NCBI GenBank assembly: GCA_003696775.1
Contig: RFFS01000095.1
Location: 1 to 36,113, forward strand
Length of the DNA stretch: 36,113 nucleotides
Direction of reading: 5' to 3'
Source: Calditrichota bacterium
Lineage (GTDB): Bacteria > Calditrichota > Calditrichia > Calditrichales > J004
The stretch's first letter is position 1, and every line of letters starts with the position of its first letter. The notes beneath the pieces were generated by a model that saw nothing but the letters and a program-made list of their open reading frames with translations, ran no database searches and was not told where the DNA came from. This document shows, one piece after another, positions 1 to 16,547 of the stretch. The position numbers were made by a program, and so were the translations under genes.

Positions 1-1598
1 AACAGATTTTTAATTTTATCACGGAATTTTTGCGACTGGGCAAAATGGTAGCGCGCCAAAAACCAGCCGTAGGCGATGCCTCGGCGCGGTTTCATATCGA
101 GACCGGCAAAATCGGTTTTTTCGACGGCCAGTTTGGGGTCCAGTTGCCACACCACCGCGCGTTGAATGCGGGACAGGTTATACTTCCAGCGGGCCGGCAG
201 AGCAAGAGCGATATCCAGATTACGCCGGAACAACAATGGCGATATCAGATCGCTTTCCATATTGCAGATGTTATTGGCCACATAGCCGAAATTGGCGTAA
301 TGGAACAGATCGAACACATCCACCTGTATGGCCACCGGACTTGCTTCATAACCGCGGATGGCGTCCGCAATCATCCTATCGATATAGGCGGGGCTTTCTT
401 TTTTAAGAGATCGGTAGGCCGGTGTAAAGATATCCTCCCGGTAGTTTTTATTCAGCGCGCGGTATTTTATAAAGATGTCCTTACGGAAGGTTTTCGGTTC
501 CCGGTAGGCGTTCATCACATACATTTCATTCCAGGTACCGTCTTTGTAAAAACGGCCGTGCACGCCGTTAACGGCCAAACGGGCAAAGGGTTGATACTGA
601 CGGCGCATATAACGGATGCGTCCCATCAGATACGCCGGCTCCTCAGCGCTGCCCAGCACAATGGAGGCCGCCACGGCTTCCCAGGGGTTATTCATAAAAT
701 CCGGCCCCAGGGTAACATGGTGCAGGGTAAACCCGTGGCGACGGCTCATTTCTTTAACATGCACCACCTCCGGAAAATCATCCTTGCCAAAGATGGCGTT
801 TTCGAACGGCAAGCCTTCCCGGGTAAAAGCCGCCAGCACCATGCGGGAATCCTGCCCCATGGTGAATTCAATCAACGGCTTGGTGTCCATGGCGCTGATC
901 AGGCGGGCCGATTGCCGCATGGTGGCCGACAGTTGCTCTGCGCTTTCTTCCAATGAGGCGGATGTATAAGTTTTAGGGGGGTGCCAGTAACGCTCTTTTT
1001 CCAGTTTTTCTTCTCCGAGACGAAAAATGGCGGCGGGAGGCATGCGTTCCACATCTTTCAGCATGGAACGGTAGGACATGATATAATACCGCCATAAAAA
1101 TTCATTCAGCGCGTAAGGGTCCACTTCCGGCGGACGTAAAACGGCGCTTAAATGGGCAAAGGGCGTAAAGAGATAACAGGCGTCGGTTTCCGTATAAAAC
1201 TGGGTTTTATTCTTCATAAAATCGTTGATCACGAGGGTGATATTCCGGCGGGCGTCGTGCAGGGCCAGCACAAAATGGCCGTCCAGTTCCTTAAGCGCCT
1301 CAATGCCGCGACCCAGATAATGCGCCCACAGTTCCCGGGCATTATAGAGGCGCGGGTCGTTTACATCCGTCACCACACCGGAAAGCGCCAGCCAGTTCCC
1401 GTCCTGGTCTTCATACCAATTGTCCCGATCGTTTTTTACAAAACGCGCCAAAAAAACATCCTGCGAGGGCCGGTGCGTCTCAATGTGTTTGAAATACGGT
1501 GCCAATTGTGTATCGATGGCGGTTTGCAAACGCCGTGCGATTCCGTCCACGCAGGCGGCATGTCCGGCTTTGGCTTTTAGCAACAAAAATCCGGCCAT
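1..1598 (-). CDS. Asparagine-synthase-like amidotransferase, Cys-less, partial (3' end outside window)
   Basis: The reading frame starts at an ATG whose first base is 1598, one base after the stop of the upstream epimerase gene, and runs off the left edge (about 532 codons visible). The N-terminal part resembles the glutaminase (GATase_7) half of AsnB, with LDGHFVLALHD near residues 104-114. The second half contains FTMGQDSRMVLAAF, matching the ATP-pyrophosphatase loop (SGGxDS in typical members). The protein begins MAG where active AsnB enzymes begin MCG, so the glutaminase nucleophile is replaced by Ala. The RDxxGxxPLY segment is also degenerate (NDFMKNKTQFY), and the first Gly of the PP-loop is Met. 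By family the enzyme would amidate a carboxylate using ATP, with free ammonia or a partner's ammonia (inference). Cys-less relatives such as beta-lactam synthetase do different chemistry. Its polysaccharide neighbours favour sugar amidation over asparagine synthesis. Confidence 0.8.
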   Translation of the reverse strand, partial: MAGFLLLKAKAGHAACVDGIARRLQTAIDTQLAPYFKHIETHRPSQDVFLARFVKNDRDNWYEDQDGNWLALSGVVTDVNDPRLYNARELWAHYLGRGIEALKELDGHFVLALHDARRNITLVINDFMKNKTQFYTETDACYLFTPFAHLSAVLRPPEVDPYALNEFLWRYYIMSYRSMLKDVERMPPAAIFRLGEEKLEKERYWHPPKTYTSASLEESAEQLSATMRQSARLISAMDTKPLIEFTMGQDSRMVLAAFTREGLPFENAIFGKDDFPEVVHVKEMSRRHGFTLHHVTLGPDFMNNPWEAVAASIVLGSAEEPAYLMGRIRYMRRQYQPFARLAVNGVHGRFYKDGTWNEMYVMNAYREPKTFRKDIFIKYRALNKNYREDIFTPAYRSLKKESPAYIDRMIADAIRGYEASPVAIQVDVFDLFHYANFGYVANNICNMESDLISPLLFRRNLDIALALPARWKYNLSRIQRAVVWQLDPKLAVEKTDFAGLDMKPRRGIAYGWFLARYHFAQSQKFRDKIKNL

Positions 1599-1599
1599 T

Positions 1600-2598
1600 T
1601 TACAAACGTCCTATTTTTTTTAAGGCTTTGAATTTGATCCTGTACATGCGCAGGGCATTGAGCAATGTATCCTGTTCACGGAAAATATCCGCGTAGCGTT
1701 TAAATATCGCGCGTCCGGTTAAGCGATGCAGCATGGTCAGTTGATTGACATGCAGACGCTGATAAGCGATCGTTGCCGGATCGATTTCCGGATGCCACGG
1801 GGCGCGGCATAAATTGTAACGGGACCAAAAGCCGAGGTCGTATTCCGGCAGAACCTTTTCCAGCGTTTCCAGCCCATCATCAAACAGGCGTCCGGCCAAT
1901 GCGTGCTCCGGAAACACCCGGGTGAATTCATGCAGACCGCAAAGGGCGAAAATTTTACCGTTCAGCACCATGGTGGGCACGGTGGCGGTATATTCCTCGT
2001 AAAAAGGGCCCCATTCCGTGTAACTGGTTACACCGCCTTCGGATACAGGCAGGGTAAAAGGTTTCAGGGCCTGTTCGGCCAGGTCGGCATAACGCTCGTC
2101 ACCCGTTAGCTGATAACCGCGCAGCAGGATGGACAGGCCGCGGCTTTGCGAAAACGCCGACTGCCAGGGCCCGGGGTTTTGATACTGGGGCAGGCGGACA
2201 TCGGTCATCCAGCGCGCGCCTTTTTCCTTGCTGATTTCAGCGTTATCGTAAAACCAATCCACAAATTTCAGAAAACGCAGGCGGTCTTCTTCCGCGCCGC
2301 TTTCCAGCCAGGTATGAAAAACAGCCAATCCCATTTGACCGATGGAAATGGGGAAATAGACATAATCCTTATCGGTTACATCGATGTAGGTTTTATTGAT
2401 GGGAATGCCGTTGGCGTCAAACTTTTTTATCAATGCCTGATCCTTGCCGGCGTTCAGCCTTTCTTCCCGGAAAATAAAATAATAATGCCCCAATGTCGCA
2501 CTATGCATGTCGTCAGGCAGAGCGTACCGTTCTTTCAGACTGCGTAAATCATCACGGAATTTTCCGGCCATGAATATCATTTTTTTCAGCTTCATCAT
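1600..2598 (-). CDS. D-glucuronyl C5-epimerase C-terminal domain protein
   Basis: This 332-residue protein has no signal peptide. It shows the pattern of the glucuronyl C5-epimerase C-terminal domain: QSAFSQSRGLSILLRGYQLT near 145-164, then FYEEYTATVPTMVLNGKIFA near 205-224, FWSRYNL, and RLHVNQLTMLHRLTG near 283-297. Family members convert D-glucuronate to L-iduronate in a polymer. They may also act as related alpha/alpha-barrel enzymes on uronic-acid glycans. The ATG at 2598 overlaps the stop of the glycosyltransferase gene (ATGA), and its own stop lies one base from the downstream start, so the genes are translationally coupled. The lack of an export signal suggests action in the cytoplasm or on a lipid-linked intermediate (inference). 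Epimerase activity itself is not proven; the assignment is to the domain family. Confidence 0.78.
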   Translation of the reverse strand: MMKLKKMIFMAGKFRDDLRSLKERYALPDDMHSATLGHYYFIFREERLNAGKDQALIKKFDANGIPINKTYIDVTDKDYVYFPISIGQMGLAVFHTWLESGAEEDRLRFLKFVDWFYDNAEISKEKGARWMTDVRLPQYQNPGPWQSAFSQSRGLSILLRGYQLTGDERYADLAEQALKPFTLPVSEGGVTSYTEWGPFYEEYTATVPTMVLNGKIFALCGLHEFTRVFPEHALAGRLFDDGLETLEKVLPEYDLGFWSRYNLCRAPWHPEIDPATIAYQRLHVNQLTMLHRLTGRAIFKRYADIFREQDTLLNALRMYRIKFKALKKIGRL

Positions 2599-3890
2599 AT
2601 CTTCCGTATTAACGTATCAAACAGGTTCGACAATCTTTCCGTCAGTTTACGACGCTCGTAAGGCCGTATGGCCTCTTCATTTACGGTAAATGGCACCGCT
2701 TCTTTCCATTTATCATATAATAAAAGGATATCTCGCCGCCAGTTGTCCACCGTCGGGTTGATACGCCCCACTCCGGCCTTTTCCAGCAGCGCATTGGCTT
2801 CCGCGTCAGCGGCACCGCAGCCCACAACCGGTCGGCGGGCGGCCATGTATTCAAACACTTTACCGGGAATATGCCCGCGGTAATGGGCGACTTTTTCCAG
2901 AAAAAGCAACAACACATCCGCCTGCTGCATCCGTGCTGTCACCGCGCGATGCGGCATATAATTTTCCAGATTCAGAGTCTCCGGAAACGGCGCGAACAGC
3001 TCTTGCAGTTGCCGTGATAACGTTTCATGAATTTGACCTATGATGTGAATGCGCGTGGACGCCGCGGGGAGCGCGCCTTCTTCCAGCAGTTGGCGCAGCA
3101 TCGTCCAGAATGCAGGGTACCAGCGGTTCGGGTTCAGCCCTCCGGCATACAGCAGGGTAAAGCGCGGTCCGCGTTTATATCCGGAGGTGAAATCTTCGGG
3201 ATCATATCCGTTGGGAATGATATCGGTTTTTTCCGGATACGAGGCGGCCAGCAGTTCGCCAAAAGCCTTGCTTACGGTAACAATATGATCGGCTTTGTTC
3301 AGAATACGCCGTTCCAGACGTTGATCCAGCCGACGCGCCGTTTCCCCGCGTTGTCCGGTATAATAGTGGATATTGCTCCACGGGTCGCGGAAATCGGCTA
3401 CCCAGCGTACGGGAAAACGTTGTTTCAAATCATAGGCGATCATATGAGTGGTGGGCGGCGGTGAGGTGCTGAACAGAATATCGGGTTGATACAGCCGCAT
3501 CAGCCGTTGGGCCTGCCGCCGCGCCGCAAATCGCCACAGCAGTTTGGCGTCCGGAATAAACAGGTTCAGGCGAATCCAATGTATAATTTTACCGGACAGA
3601 TTTTGAGGGGCGCGGGCCAGTTGCCCCACGGGGGCGCCTTGCGAGGTTGTTCCGCGCAGACGACGCAGCGCCTGTTCCGGCTCCGGCGCCACGCTGTAAA
3701 ACACTTTAACACCGGCCGGTACTTCCGCGGCCAGACTTTCATCACGCGCCGGCCAAATGCCATCCCGCACGGTTAACACAACCACCCGCCAGCCCAGCTC
3801 GTGCAGATAGCGGGCAAATTTAAGCGGGCGTTGCACGCCGGGTCCACCGGCGGGCGGCCAGTAATAGCTGATGATCAGAACGGTTTTCAT
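2595..3890 (-). CDS. Glycosyltransferase family 4 (GT-B) protein
   Basis: The protein has 431 residues. The N-terminal Rossmann-like half opens with a beta strand and a glycine-rich loop (YYWPPAGGPGVQR, residues 9-21), typical of GT4 sugar transferases. WVADFRDPWSN lies near residue 165, and the C-terminal nucleotide-sugar site is GKVFEYMAARRPVVG near 340-355. It would transfer a sugar from an activated nucleotide sugar to a growing surface glycan. Donor and acceptor cannot be read from sequence. Its ATG overlaps the YfhO-like stop (ATGA) and its stop overlaps the epimerase start, so it sits in the middle of a coupled operon. The MIAYDL segment near residue 145 and other hydrophobic stretches suggest peripheral membrane contact, but no clear transmembrane helix is seen. 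Confidence 0.88.
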   Translation of the reverse strand: MKTVLIISYYWPPAGGPGVQRPLKFARYLHELGWRVVVLTVRDGIWPARDESLAAEVPAGVKVFYSVAPEPEQALRRLRGTTSQGAPVGQLARAPQNLSGKIIHWIRLNLFIPDAKLLWRFAARRQAQRLMRLYQPDILFSTSPPPTTHMIAYDLKQRFPVRWVADFRDPWSNIHYYTGQRGETARRLDQRLERRILNKADHIVTVSKAFGELLAASYPEKTDIIPNGYDPEDFTSGYKRGPRFTLLYAGGLNPNRWYPAFWTMLRQLLEEGALPAASTRIHIIGQIHETLSRQLQELFAPFPETLNLENYMPHRAVTARMQQADVLLLFLEKVAHYRGHIPGKVFEYMAARRPVVGCGAADAEANALLEKAGVGRINPTVDNWRRDILLLYDKWKEAVPFTVNEEAIRPYERRKLTERLSNLFDTLIRKI

Positions 3891-6382
3891 TCCGGTTGCG
3901 GGGCGCCTCCGCTTTTTCGGTTTTTAAGCCACGGCGCCAACCCGCTTAACGCGGCCAAGACCAACAGGGTTACGGAAATAGCGGCCATGCGGACATTTCG
4001 GGCATAGGAATCGGGTTCAAACACCAGCCGCACGGTATGACGCCCCGCGGGTATGCGCATCGCCTGCAGGGTGTGATCCGCCCTCCAGACCTTCTCAACC
4101 GGCGCATCATCGAGATAGTGTTTCCAGCCCGGCGGATAGTAATTTTCCGAAATCACCAAAAGGCCTTCGGTCGAAGTATATACCTGTAATTTCAATTCCT
4201 TCGGTGAAAATCCGGTTACCCGCACACTTTGGCTGTCTGCTTCCTGAGGTTGCCAGCCGGGATCGCTTTCCAGCAACGCCACGCTATCGGGTTTAAATGC
4301 CGGATTATTGAGATAAGCCACCCGCTCATATTCATCGGGGATGAGCTTATAAGCCGGGACAAACCAGGCACGCGGCAAAGCATTCTTTAAACGGTAGGTT
4401 GTCAATTTTGCAGCGGCATCCCGGTGAACCGCCGTAAAATCGTTGTCAGGCAGGGTACGGCCGGAAACGACGTATTTCACGTTAAGCATGCGCAACACCG
4501 CCGGATTCACGCGGTTGCCGTTGGCCAGGTTGTTTTCAACAATCTCTTCCATGCTGTACATCTTGATAGGGGTGTAACCGCCCACGTTTTGATGAAAATA
4601 GGAATAACGGTTATCGCGAAAGGAGCGCCCCACCGGCATAACCCGGAACAGGGACGTATCTTTTAAAATAAAACGATCGCTGTCCGTGGCGCGGAAATAA
4701 CGTTGTTCCAGGCGCTTCAGGTTAACAAATTCCTTGGTAACCCGTTCCCGGATGGCGGTCATATCGATCAGCGTCAGCAACACCAAAAACAGACCGAACG
4801 CCGCGGCGTTGAGTTTGTTTTTAAGATAAGCCCCGAGAGCGACCACAACAGCAAGCGCGAATCCGATAAAACGCAGCATATCACTGTTAAACATCTCCTT
4901 GCGGATGGCAATAATCATGTGCATCACCTGCGGATCGTACTGCTCGCCGCTTTTGGTGAAGGAAAACCCCTGCCCCACCAACCAGAAAAGGAGACCCACG
5001 CCTACAAAAACACCGCTGATCGTCAACAGTTTACGCGCCGTTTCTTTTTCACGGGCTTGCGGTTGCAACACGCTTTTTAAGCCGAACGCGGCCAGTAAGG
5101 CCATGATGAAAAAGGTGACGGTTACGCTCATCATCGGCGCGCGAAATTTGTTGAAATAGGGGACATAATCGAAAAAGAGCCGGTAAAACGCCTCAAAATG
5201 CCGACCGAAGGAGAGCAGCGTCAAAAATACGGCAAACACCGTCAGGGCAATCACCAGCGGATGACGCCGATTCATAAAAATACCGATCAAAGCCAGCAGC
5301 AGGGTCAGAATGCCCATGTATTCGTAACTCTGTGTAAACGGCATCTCGCCCCAATAGCCGGGGATGGTACGGCCACGCAATTGGGGCACGGCATCGCCGG
5401 TATAGGTTTCGCCGGACATACCGCCAAAAGCACGTGGTGCAATCCAGGTAAACAGCTCATCCGGCGCGGTGGACCACTGGGTGGCGTACTCCATGGATAC
5501 GCCTGTTCCCGAACCCGCTTGTTGGACGTTTTGCGGTTGATTCAAGTGGATGGTGGTTTTACCGCGCTTGGACCAGGGGATATATTCCCCGGCCAGGAAC
5601 AAGGGTTGGGCGGCGGTCATAATGCCCAGTGTCACCGCGGCAACAATCAACAATGCCGCGCGGCCAAAAGCGGCATAGCGTTTGTTCAAAGCTTCTTTGA
5701 TCACCGGACCGATCCCGATGCTGAAGATCAGCAAAGCCGTATAAAAGATGATTTGATAATGCTGGGTGCGAATCTGCACGCCAAAAGCCAGGCCAAACAA
5801 GGCCGCCGCCCAAAGGGTGCGTTTATCAAGAAACACCCTAAACATCCAAATAACCCACGGCAGCAGCATCAGTGCCCGGTATTTGGCGTTGTGCCCTTCC
5901 AGAAAAAGGGATTTATAATGCGGCATCAAAACAAACATCGCCGCCCCCGCGAAACCGATGAGCGGGCTGAAACGCATATAACGCAGCATAAAATAAAAAC
6001 CGTACGCCGCAAACAGAGTGTAGATAAATATGTTGTTGAACAAACGCCCCAACAGGTTTAGCAGGGTATCAAACGATGGCGTCACCGGCGGAATGCGCTG
6101 GTAACGCGGCATGCCGGCAAACACGTACGGGTTCCACAACGCCTTTTCCCCGCTTTTTTCCTGCCATAATTTCACCTGATGGTTGGTGCCGATGGAGCCG
6201 AGCACATCCACGCCCTGCGGTGTCAGGTGATCGATGGCCATGGGCTTAAACAGAATCAACAAACCGATGGTCAGCGCCAGCAATGCGAGGATATCCTGCG
6301 CACGGGTACTCAGTCGGGGCAGCGCGTTTGCGTCCGGCCGAGGGTCGTACTTCGGGGCGGTGTTTTTTTTCTTTTTTGCCAT
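3887..6382 (-). CDS. YfhO-family multi-spanning membrane protein
   Basis: The protein has 831 residues, with a short basic N-terminus (MAKKKKN), about a dozen hydrophobic helices up to roughly residue 555, a soluble domain, and a last helix near 800-822 (ISVTLLVLAALSGLAPWL). The end of the soluble part reads SENYYPPGWKHYLDDAPVEK, followed by a PAGRHTVRLVFEPDS stretch, which is the characteristic closing block of YfhO-like proteins. Family members are implicated in glycosylating lipoteichoic acid or other envelope polymers from lipid-linked sugars, with a GT-C-like fold. An external sugar-transfer role beside the GT4 gene is therefore inferred. The ATG at 6382 is preceded by AAGGAC. It is the first gene of the minus-strand operon 6382-1. 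Confidence 0.87.
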   Translation of the reverse strand: MAKKKKNTAPKYDPRPDANALPRLSTRAQDILALLALTIGLLILFKPMAIDHLTPQGVDVLGSIGTNHQVKLWQEKSGEKALWNPYVFAGMPRYQRIPPVTPSFDTLLNLLGRLFNNIFIYTLFAAYGFYFMLRYMRFSPLIGFAGAAMFVLMPHYKSLFLEGHNAKYRALMLLPWVIWMFRVFLDKRTLWAAALFGLAFGVQIRTQHYQIIFYTALLIFSIGIGPVIKEALNKRYAAFGRAALLIVAAVTLGIMTAAQPLFLAGEYIPWSKRGKTTIHLNQPQNVQQAGSGTGVSMEYATQWSTAPDELFTWIAPRAFGGMSGETYTGDAVPQLRGRTIPGYWGEMPFTQSYEYMGILTLLLALIGIFMNRRHPLVIALTVFAVFLTLLSFGRHFEAFYRLFFDYVPYFNKFRAPMMSVTVTFFIMALLAAFGLKSVLQPQAREKETARKLLTISGVFVGVGLLFWLVGQGFSFTKSGEQYDPQVMHMIIAIRKEMFNSDMLRFIGFALAVVVALGAYLKNKLNAAAFGLFLVLLTLIDMTAIRERVTKEFVNLKRLEQRYFRATDSDRFILKDTSLFRVMPVGRSFRDNRYSYFHQNVGGYTPIKMYSMEEIVENNLANGNRVNPAVLRMLNVKYVVSGRTLPDNDFTAVHRDAAAKLTTYRLKNALPRAWFVPAYKLIPDEYERVAYLNNPAFKPDSVALLESDPGWQPQEADSQSVRVTGFSPKELKLQVYTSTEGLLVISENYYPPGWKHYLDDAPVEKVWRADHTLQAMRIPAGRHTVRLVFEPDSYARNVRMAAISVTLLVLAALSGLAPWLKNRKSGGAPQPE

Positions 6383-13749: not shown

Positions 13750-15285
13750 ATGAATAAAGAGATTATTATTAACTCTACCAACGAAGAAACACGCATCGTT
13801 TTGCGTGAAGACGGTAAAGTGGTGGAGTTGTTTGTGGAAGCCCCCGAACACGAACGCATGGTGGGCGATATATACAAAGCCCGTGTAAGCCGTGTTCTAC
13901 CGGGCATGCAGGCCGCCTTTATAGATATCGGTCTGGAACAGAACGCCTTTTTGCACTTTTCGGACGTCAGTCCGTTTTACAAGGAATTTTTTAACGAAGG
14001 ATCGGAAGCGGCGCCACGCAGGCGGCGCGGTTACCGCGATTTTGACCCGGCCCGGGAGTTGAAAAAAGGCCAGGACATCATGGTGCAAATCGTAAAAGAA
14101 CCGATCAGCACCAAGGGATGCCGCGTTACCTCGGAAATCACCCTGCCCGGCCGTTTTGTGGTGTTGATTCCCTATCAGAAAAACATCGGTATTTCGCGCA
14201 AAATCGAAGACCCTGCCGAGCGTAAGCGCCTTAAACAACTGGCCCGGCAAATCATCCCGGCCAATTTCGGCCTGATCATCCGTACCGTGGCCGGCGGCAA
14301 AAGCGAACGCGAGCTGAAACGCGACATAAACGACCTGATGAACACCTGGAAAAAAATGGAAAAACAGATCAAAACCGGTGAAGCGCCTTTGCTGGTTTAT
14401 AAGGATTTAAGCATGGCCTCCAGCATCATCCGCGATTTGTTCACAGCCGACGTTAACCAGGTGCATGTGGATTCCCGTAAAATGATGCGCGATGTTTCGC
14501 AATATGTACGCGATGTGGCGCCCCACCTCGAACATAAAATCAACTATTACAAGGGCAAGGCCCCGATCTTCGATCACTTCAATGTGGAAGAGGAGATCGA
14601 AAAAATCACTCAGTCGCAGGTGTGGATGAAGAATGGCGGTTATCTTGTCATCCACCCCACGGAGGCGTTGGTTTCCATTGATGTGAACAGCGGTAAGTAC
14701 ATCGGCAAAAAGGATCATGAAACCAATTCCCTCAAAATCAATCTCGAGGCGGCCCGGGAAATTGCCCGTCAGGCCCGTCTGCGCGATTTGGGCGGTTTGA
14801 TTGTTATCGACTTTATCGATGTGCTGGAATCGGAAAACAAACGTAAAATATTCCTTGAACTGCGCAAGGAGTTTGCCAAAGACCGCGCCATCACCAAAAT
14901 CGAACCGATGAGCCGTTTCGGTTTGATAGAAATGACCCGTCAGCGCGTGCGTCCGCAGGTGATCCATTCCATATACGAAGCGTGCCCCAAATGCAACGGC
15001 ACCGGACTGGTGCCCACCATAGCCACTACCGTTTCACGCATAGAACGCTGGCTGCAACGCTACCGCGCCTCGCAGGGTGACCGCCGTGTCATTTTGCAGG
15101 TAACCCCGGATGTATATAGTTACCTGATAGCCGGTCGCTATAACAAGCGTTTGCGTCTTATGTGGAAATACTGGATGAAAATAACCGTCAGCAAGGACGA
15201 AAGTCTAGACGTAGGACAATTCCGTTTTCTCAATGCCCGCAACAAAAAGGAAATCATTTTACAGGAGAAAAAATCCAAAAAATGA
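13750..15285 (+). CDS. rng: Ribonuclease G (RNase E/G family)
   Basis: The ATG at 13750, behind GGGAAAAGGAAG, is chosen over a TTG one codon upstream, giving 511 residues. The order is an S1-like RNA-binding domain (about 37-130, with GDIYKARVSRVLPGMQAAF), an RNase-H-like and DNase-I-like catalytic core, and the zinc-link CPKC near 413-416. Catalytic acidic residues are visible in SIDVNSGKY (near 311) and VIDFIDV (near 354). The enzyme cuts single-stranded A/U-rich RNA and matures rRNA ends. The length fits RNase G and lacks the long RNase E scaffold tail. The stop overlaps lysA by ATGA. Confidence 0.95.
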   Translation: MNKEIIINSTNEETRIVLREDGKVVELFVEAPEHERMVGDIYKARVSRVLPGMQAAFIDIGLEQNAFLHFSDVSPFYKEFFNEGSEAAPRRRRGYRDFDPARELKKGQDIMVQIVKEPISTKGCRVTSEITLPGRFVVLIPYQKNIGISRKIEDPAERKRLKQLARQIIPANFGLIIRTVAGGKSERELKRDINDLMNTWKKMEKQIKTGEAPLLVYKDLSMASSIIRDLFTADVNQVHVDSRKMMRDVSQYVRDVAPHLEHKINYYKGKAPIFDHFNVEEEIEKITQSQVWMKNGGYLVIHPTEALVSIDVNSGKYIGKKDHETNSLKINLEAAREIARQARLRDLGGLIVIDFIDVLESENKRKIFLELRKEFAKDRAITKIEPMSRFGLIEMTRQRVRPQVIHSIYEACPKCNGTGLVPTIATTVSRIERWLQRYRASQGDRRVILQVTPDVYSYLIAGRYNKRLRLMWKYWMKITVSKDESLDVGQFRFLNARNKKEIILQEKKSKK

Positions 15286-16547
15286 ATTATCCTTATCATT
15301 ACAAAAACGGTCGGTTGTTTTGCGAGGAGGTGGATATTGCCGAAGCGGCCGAAAATATGGAAACACCTTTTTATCTGTACAGCTCACGCGAAATCCGCCA
15401 CAGTTGCCAAATCATCCGTGAAGCAGGCAGCCCGTATCATTTCAAACCCTTTTACGCGCTGAAAGCGAATTACAATCCGGCATTACTGAAACTGATCCGG
15501 GAAGAAGGCTTTGGCGCCGATATCGTTTCCGGCGGCGAACTCTATTTTGCCCGACGCGCCGGTTTTGTTCCCGAAGAGATCGTCTTTGCCGGCGTGGGTA
15601 AAACCGAACAGGAATTACGCGCGGCCCTTAAGGAAGAAATCGCTTCCATCAATATCGAATCGGAAGCCGAATTGCTCCTGTTAAGCCGTATCGCCGCCAA
15701 TTTAAAACAAAAAACGGCCATCGCCATTCGCATCAATCCGGATATCGACGCCCAAACCCATGAATATATTTCCACCGGCCTGCACAGCAACAAATTCGGC
15801 GTGGACGCGGAAAGCGCCATGCAACTGTACCGCATGGCGGCGGCAGACCCCTGGCTGGAACCGGAGGGCATCCACATGCACATCGGATCGCAAATAGAAA
15901 ACGGTCAGCCCTATGTGGACGCGGCGCGTTTTCTGCTCAACTTTATTGAACGCCTGGCCGCCGAAGGCATCCGCATCTCCACCGTGGACCTTGGCGGGGG
16001 CATCGGCATCAATTATGAAGACCCCTTTGAAAAGCCGGAAAAAGCGCGCACGTTCACCCAACACATTTTGAATGATTATCTCGCTGTGTTTAAAAATCGC
16101 TCGCTCAAACTTTTTCTTGAAGTGGGGCGTTCCGTCGTGGGCAGCGCCGGTGTGTTAATCAGCCGGGTGATTTATACCAAAACCACGCCCGCCAAACATT
16201 TTACCATCGTGGACGCGGCCATGAACAACCTGATTCGCCCCAGCCTGTACCGCGCGCATCATCCCATCGCGGCGGTGCGTAAAGAAACGACGGCGCCGGT
16301 TGTTACCACTGATGTGGTGGGTCCGGTGTGTGAAACGGGTGATTTTCTGGCCCGCGAACGGGCGTTGCCCGCCCTGAAGGAAGGCGATTTAATCGCCGTG
16401 GGCGGCGCCGGCGCTTACGGTCAATCGCTGGCTTCGCTTTACAACTTACGCCCCATGGTGGCGGAATATCTGGTGGACGGCTCTTCCATTCGTAAAATCA
16501 GTCCGGCGCTTACCCCGGAAGAACTGGCCGATCGCTTTGAATGGTAA
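15282..16547 (+). CDS. lysA: Diaminopimelate decarboxylase
   Basis: With ATG at 15282 overlapping the rng stop, the protein has 421 residues. AGGAG lies about 14 bases upstream, inside rng. It is a fold-type III PLP enzyme. The PLP lysine is in YALKAN at 61, and family blocks include HMHIGSQI near 200, DLGGGIGINY near 238, and VGPVCETGDFLA near 346, with the Cys that completes the active site of the dimer partner. It turns meso-diaminopimelate into L-lysine, the last step of lysine synthesis, in the cytoplasm. It overlaps alr, pairing lysine and cell-wall precursor functions. Confidence 0.95.
   Translation: MNYPYHYKNGRLFCEEVDIAEAAENMETPFYLYSSREIRHSCQIIREAGSPYHFKPFYALKANYNPALLKLIREEGFGADIVSGGELYFARRAGFVPEEIVFAGVGKTEQELRAALKEEIASINIESEAELLLLSRIAANLKQKTAIAIRINPDIDAQTHEYISTGLHSNKFGVDAESAMQLYRMAAADPWLEPEGIHMHIGSQIENGQPYVDAARFLLNFIERLAAEGIRISTVDLGGGIGINYEDPFEKPEKARTFTQHILNDYLAVFKNRSLKLFLEVGRSVVGSAGVLISRVIYTKTTPAKHFTIVDAAMNNLIRPSLYRAHHPIAAVRKETTAPVVTTDVVGPVCETGDFLARERALPALKEGDLIAVGGAGAYGQSLASLYNLRPMVAEYLVDGSSIRKISPALTPEELADRFEW

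Follow-up and report, generated by a model that had tools for sequence, protein, structure and literature searches.

We identified a tightly coupled four-gene operon on the minus strand of a Calditrichia MAG (3.25 Mb), consisting of a YfhO-like gene, a GT4 gene, a C5-epimerase gene, and a gene for an AsnB-like protein (Table 1). Judged by its sequence and gene context, the operon would make a C5-epimerized uronate as an N-substituted amide in a surface glycan, with the amine most likely coming from a nearby decarboxylase; we rate this reading, taken whole, at a shade under an even chance. The operon lies at one end of the window, by which we mean the whole 36,113-nucleotide stretch of DNA analyzed, whose first base is also the first of contig C134 in the source assembly.

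Table 1. Operon genes and sequence features located in the window.
Feature	Position in window	Strand	Basis or remark
Multi-spanning membrane protein ("YfhO-like")	3887..6382	-	First gene of the operon; PF10131, 28.9 bits against a cut-off of 26.4 (Pfam); many genomes have relatives ahead of GT4-epimerase
GT4 glycosyltransferase	2595..3890	-	Pfam; relatives adjoin the epimerase in the two phyla
Single-domain D-glucuronyl C5-epimerase (PF06662)	1600..2598	-	Pfam, PDB Glce profile match, fold
Stretch holding all five Glce catalytic residues	1762..1995	-	Alignment to Glce
Glutaminase-dead AsnB-like protein	1..1598 (codons 1598-3)	-	ORF, orthologues, alignment, fold
Met-Ala replacing Met-Cys of class II glutaminases	1593..1598	-	Catalytic Cys absent
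Altered PP-loop TMGQDSR for SGGxDS	843..863	-	hhalign to SGGLDSS of canonical AsnB

The GT4 gene overlapped both of its neighbors by 4 bases (YfhO-like/GT4 and GT4/epimerase), and the epimerase stop codon was separated by one base from the start codon of the AsnB-like gene (TAA-A-ATG). The preliminary description had claimed this gene order, these domains, and a coupling of the last two genes by neighboring stop and start codons; we recovered all four genes on the minus strand with the coupling as described. Its YfhO-like label held in part: a membrane-protein gene does head the operon, lying almost wholly outside the interval 1-3890, but Pfam assigned it to the membrane-protein family PF10131 and not to YfhO. 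The AsnB-like gene ran off the window, where contig C134 ends and truncates it, so that 532 of about 620 residues (full length taken from relatives) fell inside. Contig C84 of the source genome started, on the coding strand, with AsnB-like C-terminal residues showing 64% identity to residues 585-612 of the G003 protein. The C134-C84 join is supported by sequence, with a gap of about 50 codons. Because C84 carries the AsnB-like 3' end and then a PLP decarboxylase gene on the same strand, the sequences support an operon that continues past the window onto this contig.

To place the operon in relatives, we used a phylum set of 40 Calditrichota genomes. Of these, 8 carried the AsnB-like orthologue and 17 the epimerase, a weak epimerase-like match in G013 being left out of the 17. 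All seven genomes in which both genes were seen (the source genome G000, G003, G004, G005, G011, G014, and G018) had them adjacent and in the same order; in G008, the contig ended inside the AsnB-like gene. A second phylum, that of G367, had a close epimerase in 20 out of 245 genomes. There, a dead AsnB stood directly downstream of the epimerase in three genomes (G596, G395, and G592), a canonical AsnB with MCG and SGGxDS adjoined it in five (G367, G584, G387, G388, and G390), and a canonical AsnB was one gene away from it in G530. Outside this phylum, G123 carried a canonical AsnB beside an epimerase. At one further locus (L112, G391:C6:50495-51145), the epimerase frame was broken by several stop codons and may be a pseudogene.

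Chance does not account for the gene arrangement, which is repeated across many genomes in the two phyla. The conservation of the four-gene order, proposed earlier as a check, was thus borne out in that the pair was kept together in both phyla, with a GT4 gene, and often a membrane protein too, in the epimerase block. The exchange of canonical and dead AsnB within one operon slot is our main argument that the AsnB step has one type of acceptor in the two versions. This slot probably corresponds to carboxylate amidation, with a different amine used by the dead variant.

The C5-epimerase domain named in the preliminary description is, by sequence, of the uronate type, with its Glce catalytic residues intact. 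The 332-aa protein matched PF06662 (C5-epim_C) in Pfam with an E value of 1.2e-42 (146 bits, cut-off 23.3), and a profile of 16 epimerase sequences matched human and zebrafish Glce in the PDB with E values of 1e-30 to 1e-32 (best 1.3e-32). The Glce active-site residues are E499, Y500, N510, Y560, and Y578 in human numbering (PMC13308652). Alignment indicated that the window epimerase has all five, as E202 (E499), Y203 (Y500), N213 (N510), Y261 (Y560), and Y279 (Y578), respectively. In 32 epimerase homologues, the equivalents of E499, Y500, and Y578 were invariant, the N510 position was N or D, and the Y560 position was Y or F. The structural model (pLDDT 93) consisted of a helical domain and about 100 N-terminal residues; its best solved fold matches were Glce 4pxq/6hzz, with the match covering about 220 Glce columns. 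Taking sequence and fold together, we consider the protein quite probably a uronate C5-epimerase.

The C5-epim_C fold and the five catalytic residues are common to this enzyme, Glce (4PXQ, 6HZZ), and the Bermanella homologue RED65_08024. Unlike Glce, the window epimerase is without the beta-hairpin domain and sits in an operon with bacterial glycan genes: the extra N-terminal beta domains (Glce dimerization) were absent from both its model and its fold match, and inspection revealed no obvious secretion signal. Since it has neither, its substrate is likely to be cytoplasmic and lipid-linked. Agl32, an archaeal GlcA C5-epimerase, is a single helical domain serving a short lipid-linked glycan, and a single bacterial glucuronyl C5-epimerase has been identified previously (PMC13308652). 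Agl32 lacks the Glce catalytic residues, whereas the window epimerase has all five.

The AsnB-like protein was more divergent from its family. It gave no match to PF00733 and a sub-threshold match to GATase_7 in Pfam, and its NCBIfam scores (43.5 bits to TIGR03108, cut-off 816.9, and 35.4 to TIGR01536) were both far under cut-off. We based its kinship with AsnB on these weak scores together with profile-profile comparison and fold. The hhalign comparison with canonical AsnB gave 98% probability, and Foldseek matched AsnB, human ASNS, and carbapenam and beta-lactam synthetases with E values of 1e-12 to 1e-15. The top PDB fold matches all belonged to the AsnB/beta-lactam synthetase superfamily, and the best PDB match by both sequence and fold was TsnB9 (7YLZ). 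The model (pLDDT 80) had the two-domain AsnB fold; the N-terminal glutaminase-type domain was kept and modeled with good confidence, its catalytic residues being gone, and residues 346-367 and 495-543 were of low confidence. Scanning the source genome with PF00733 picked up further PP-loop proteins as well as a second AsnB-like gene, on contig C77, and left the window's gene unmatched. A contig search with the AsnB-like protein alone as query found one close relative only.

Orthologues of the AsnB-like protein were 40-61% identical and shared a distinctive set of replacements. The N-terminus was MAG or MAA, not MCG, in all 10 members with an intact start, and neither the NGE motif nor any further glutaminase residue that we inspected remained. 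A wrong start codon hiding an MCG was ruled out: the frame is only four codons longer upstream (536 versus 532 aa), and relatives start at the same place. At the SGGxDS site, TxGQD[S/T]R was found in 11 out of 11 members, and at the SGEGxDE site, NG..G..YK was found in the eight Calditrichota members. These two motifs and E[K/R]TDFGG were invariant or nearly so, despite an overall identity of 40-60%. By comparison, most other AsnB-family proteins from the same searches retained MCG and SGGxDS. The strong conservation of the replacement motifs themselves argues for a signature that is constrained rather than decaying and for an activity that has changed rather than been lost, although adenylation could be weak or absent with such a changed PP-loop. 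The protein is very probably an ATP-dependent amide ligase without glutaminase activity.

Members of the AsnB family TIGR03108 (WbpS, PGN_1234, and WbqG) resemble the AsnB-like protein in fold, in their glycan locus, and in the expected uronate carboxylate acceptor (PMC7468200). The window protein differs from them in having no glutaminase Cys and an altered PP-loop. As the N-terminal Cys and the inspected glutaminase residues were lost in all members, it is, by sequence, not a WbpS-type glutamine-dependent uronamide amidotransferase. The beta-lactam and carbapenam synthetases (1MBZ, 1Q15), which share the AsnB fold and were among its top fold matches, make an amide with an amine other than glutamine-derived ammonia. 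In these enzymes, which have the usual PP-loop and a lactam-forming catalytic dyad, a lactam is closed within a small molecule, whereas the AsnB-like protein belongs to a glycan operon and has TxGQDSR.

Gene context in relatives favored a uronate as the substrate of the epimerase and the AsnB-like protein. In G014, a heparinase II/III-like gene lay close downstream of the pair, and NDP-sugar dehydrogenases were present in every genome checked. The G011 operon, whose gene set recalls diamino-uronate pathways, included an oxidoreductase, an acetyltransferase, a DegT aminotransferase, and genes of the WbuX/HisF2 type, with putative Wbp assignments. Among epimerase loci without AsnB, those of G026 (L059 4500-7746) and G032 (L066 3637-6435) contained sulfotransferases and are reminiscent of heparan-sulfate-style tailoring; in G026, a DUF7033/DUF2334 protein also adjoined the epimerase. 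We lean slightly toward the AsnB-like acceptor being the same uronate that the epimerase acts on. The two enzymes could also act on different sugars of one glycan.

The gene order, conservation, folds, and presence or loss of residues that we observed suggest the following scheme, in which we infer the substrate, the order of the steps, and the amine. The GT4 and the membrane protein would serve in glycan assembly or transfer. The cytoplasmic C5-epimerase, given its intact Glce site, would invert C5 of a uronate in a growing, probably lipid-linked chain. The AsnB-like protein would then adenylate the uronate carboxylate with ATP and join an amine to it. With its glutaminase lost, the usual ammonia from glutamine would not be supplied and another amine would be used, as in the beta-lactam and carbapenam synthetases; this amine would most likely be the product of the nearby PLP decarboxylase. 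The predicted product is an N-substituted amide of a C5-epimerized uronic acid. Vibrio cholerae VPS offers a precedent for this chemistry, with no homology claimed: it contains L-GulNAcA, which is a C5-inverted uronate, as the glycine amide (PMC3901696), and thus, as proposed here, a carboxyl group carrying a non-ammonia amine. The VPS enzymes for epimerization and glycine modification have been reported as not determined (PMC4432689). A literature search for a C5-epimerase with an asparagine synthase or synthetase in glycan contexts found no description of the pair.

The C84 segment L093 3266-4677 holds the AsnB-like 3' end and then, on the same strand, the decarboxylase gene, which encodes a divergent DAP-decarboxylase-like PLP enzyme. 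Only four of the 40 phylum genomes had an orthologue: in G000 and G003 it followed the AsnB-like gene immediately, and in G004 and G005 it came one gene further downstream. Including G592, a PLP decarboxylase was near the AsnB-like gene in five genomes. In G001 and G002, of the same genus, the decarboxylase, AsnB-like gene, and epimerase were all missing. The orthologue was absent from G008, G011, G014, and G018, and in the surroundings of the AsnB-like gene in G596 and G395 it was likewise not found. The linked enzyme scored 200 bits to LysA, short of the curated cut-off of 297.9, and its closest solved relatives were DAP decarboxylases and BtrK. A housekeeping LysA was ruled out by this low score and by a separate true LysA in the window at 15162-16547 (452.6 bits). 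The window segment 15162-17656 holds this true LysA followed by an alanine racemase gene that overlaps its end. The gene between the AsnB-like gene and the decarboxylase in G004/G005 (L055 12041-13483, L056 17158-18627) encodes a 480-aa protein without a Pfam or NCBIfam match that, by eye, could be a fold-type I PLP enzyme.

The nearby PLP decarboxylase points to an amine other than ammonia and so suggests an N-substituted amide rather than a CONH2 uronamide. That the amine for the AsnB-like step comes from this decarboxylase seems plausible to us, if short of an even chance. Where a ThrC/cysteate-synthase-like PALP gene is also present (the source genome, G003, and G592), the foremost candidate is taurine derived from cysteate, although we think it rather unlikely that the amine is in fact taurine. 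PAPS reductase yields sulfite, cysteate synthase yields cysteate, and decarboxylation of cysteate yields taurine. G592 has a run of epimerase, dead AsnB, PALP, PAPS reductase (176-190 bits, above cut-off), decarboxylase, and a 182-aa possible regulator; the sulfite-cysteate-taurine route is thus coherent at the sequence level, with all parts in G592 only. The cysteate-synthase assignment of the PALP was weak (90 bits, cut-off 325). A PALP orthologue, 51-52% identical, occurred in a second glycan locus, alongside the same regulator family, on contig C77 of the source genome as well as in G003 and G001; it was absent from G004/G005. G592 and G003 each had a separate ThrC above cut-off, which makes their PALP a paralogue. 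Neither G000 nor G001 yielded a ThrC above cut-off, so in these genomes the PALP could still be the housekeeping enzyme. PAPS reductase was not found in the source genome or G003.

The simplest competing product is a plain uronamide, the AsnB-like protein using free ammonia or that of another glutaminase to give CONH2, as WbpS would. WbpS is established to form uronamides in Porphyromonas (PMC7468200), and canonical AsnB fills the same slot in six second-phylum relatives. However, the glutaminase residues are gone in all AsnB-like members, an amino acid decarboxylase is close to the AsnB-like gene in five genomes, and the only separate glutaminase gene seen next to it was HisH in G011, a part of WbuX/HisF2-type acetamidino modification. 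We consider this outcome unlikely. Of the earlier proposal that the AsnB-like protein amidates a uronate, the AsnB superfamily holds and the canonical AsnB in the same slot favors carboxylate amidation as the step, whereas the glutamine-dependent uronamide route falls with the lost glutaminase residues.

The AsnB-like protein might instead modify another part of the glycan or the lipid carrier (for example, an amino-sugar acyl or hydroxamate-like group), with adjacency reflecting a shared pathway only. Its closest solved relative, TsnB9, is a hydroxyamidotransferase that takes hydroxylamine from glutamate hydroxamate and passes it to trichostatic acid (PMC5719088), and the G011 operon holds a sugar-modification set (oxidoreductase, acetyltransferase, aminotransferase, and WbuX). 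Unlike the TsnB9 case, no hydroxylamine-donor genes were seen in the window operon, and the tight coupling to the epimerase is kept in two phyla; another target is, in our estimation, improbable to about the same degree as a plain uronamide. A role beside the epimerase as a carboxylate-binding partner or scaffold without catalysis would fit the loss of SGGxDS and SGEGxDE and the low-confidence regions of the model, but TxGQD[S/T]R, NG..G..YK, and E[K/R]TDFGG are as conserved as would be expected of an active site, and we regard such a role as very unlikely.

An N-substituted amide of a C5-epimerized uronate accordingly stays our preferred product. Its most specific form, a taurine (or related decarboxylated amino acid) cap added by glutaminase-dead AsnB ligases of a new class, would be a glycan-tailoring system new to description; we hold this for a long shot, though a reasoned one. 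Under it, the cysteate-synthase-like and DAP-decarboxylase-like enzymes would produce the amine locally, starting from sulfite, and the cap would place sulfonate charges on a bacterial glycan, resembling sulfated iduronate polymers. The gene set and its natural control, a canonical AsnB replacing the dead variant in the same operon, make two questions directly testable, that of bacterial glucuronyl C5-epimerases and that of the enzymes joining amines other than ammonia to uronate carboxyls, and could supply new enzymes for iduronate-like glycans.

We also noted several loci beside the operon. The second glycan locus of the source genome, on contig C77 (L113 1-9786), contains the PALP gene and a 180-aa possible regulator and, by eye, a possible glycosyltransferase, flippase-like, AsnB-like (with SGGYDSR), and sulfotransferase-like genes; it was closely matched in G003 and G001. 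The regulator belongs to a family of 180-190 aa proteins, without a family name and with sub-threshold HTH matches, that recurs in glycan loci of two phyla (L058-L061, L094, L100, L106, and L113-L115), often near an epimerase or AsnB-like gene, and is possibly a dedicated regulator of such loci. Elsewhere in the window, a stand-alone N4/N6 DNA methyltransferase-like gene (PF01555; 8446-9804) lies between a metallo-beta-lactamase-fold gene and a small, unassigned ORF.
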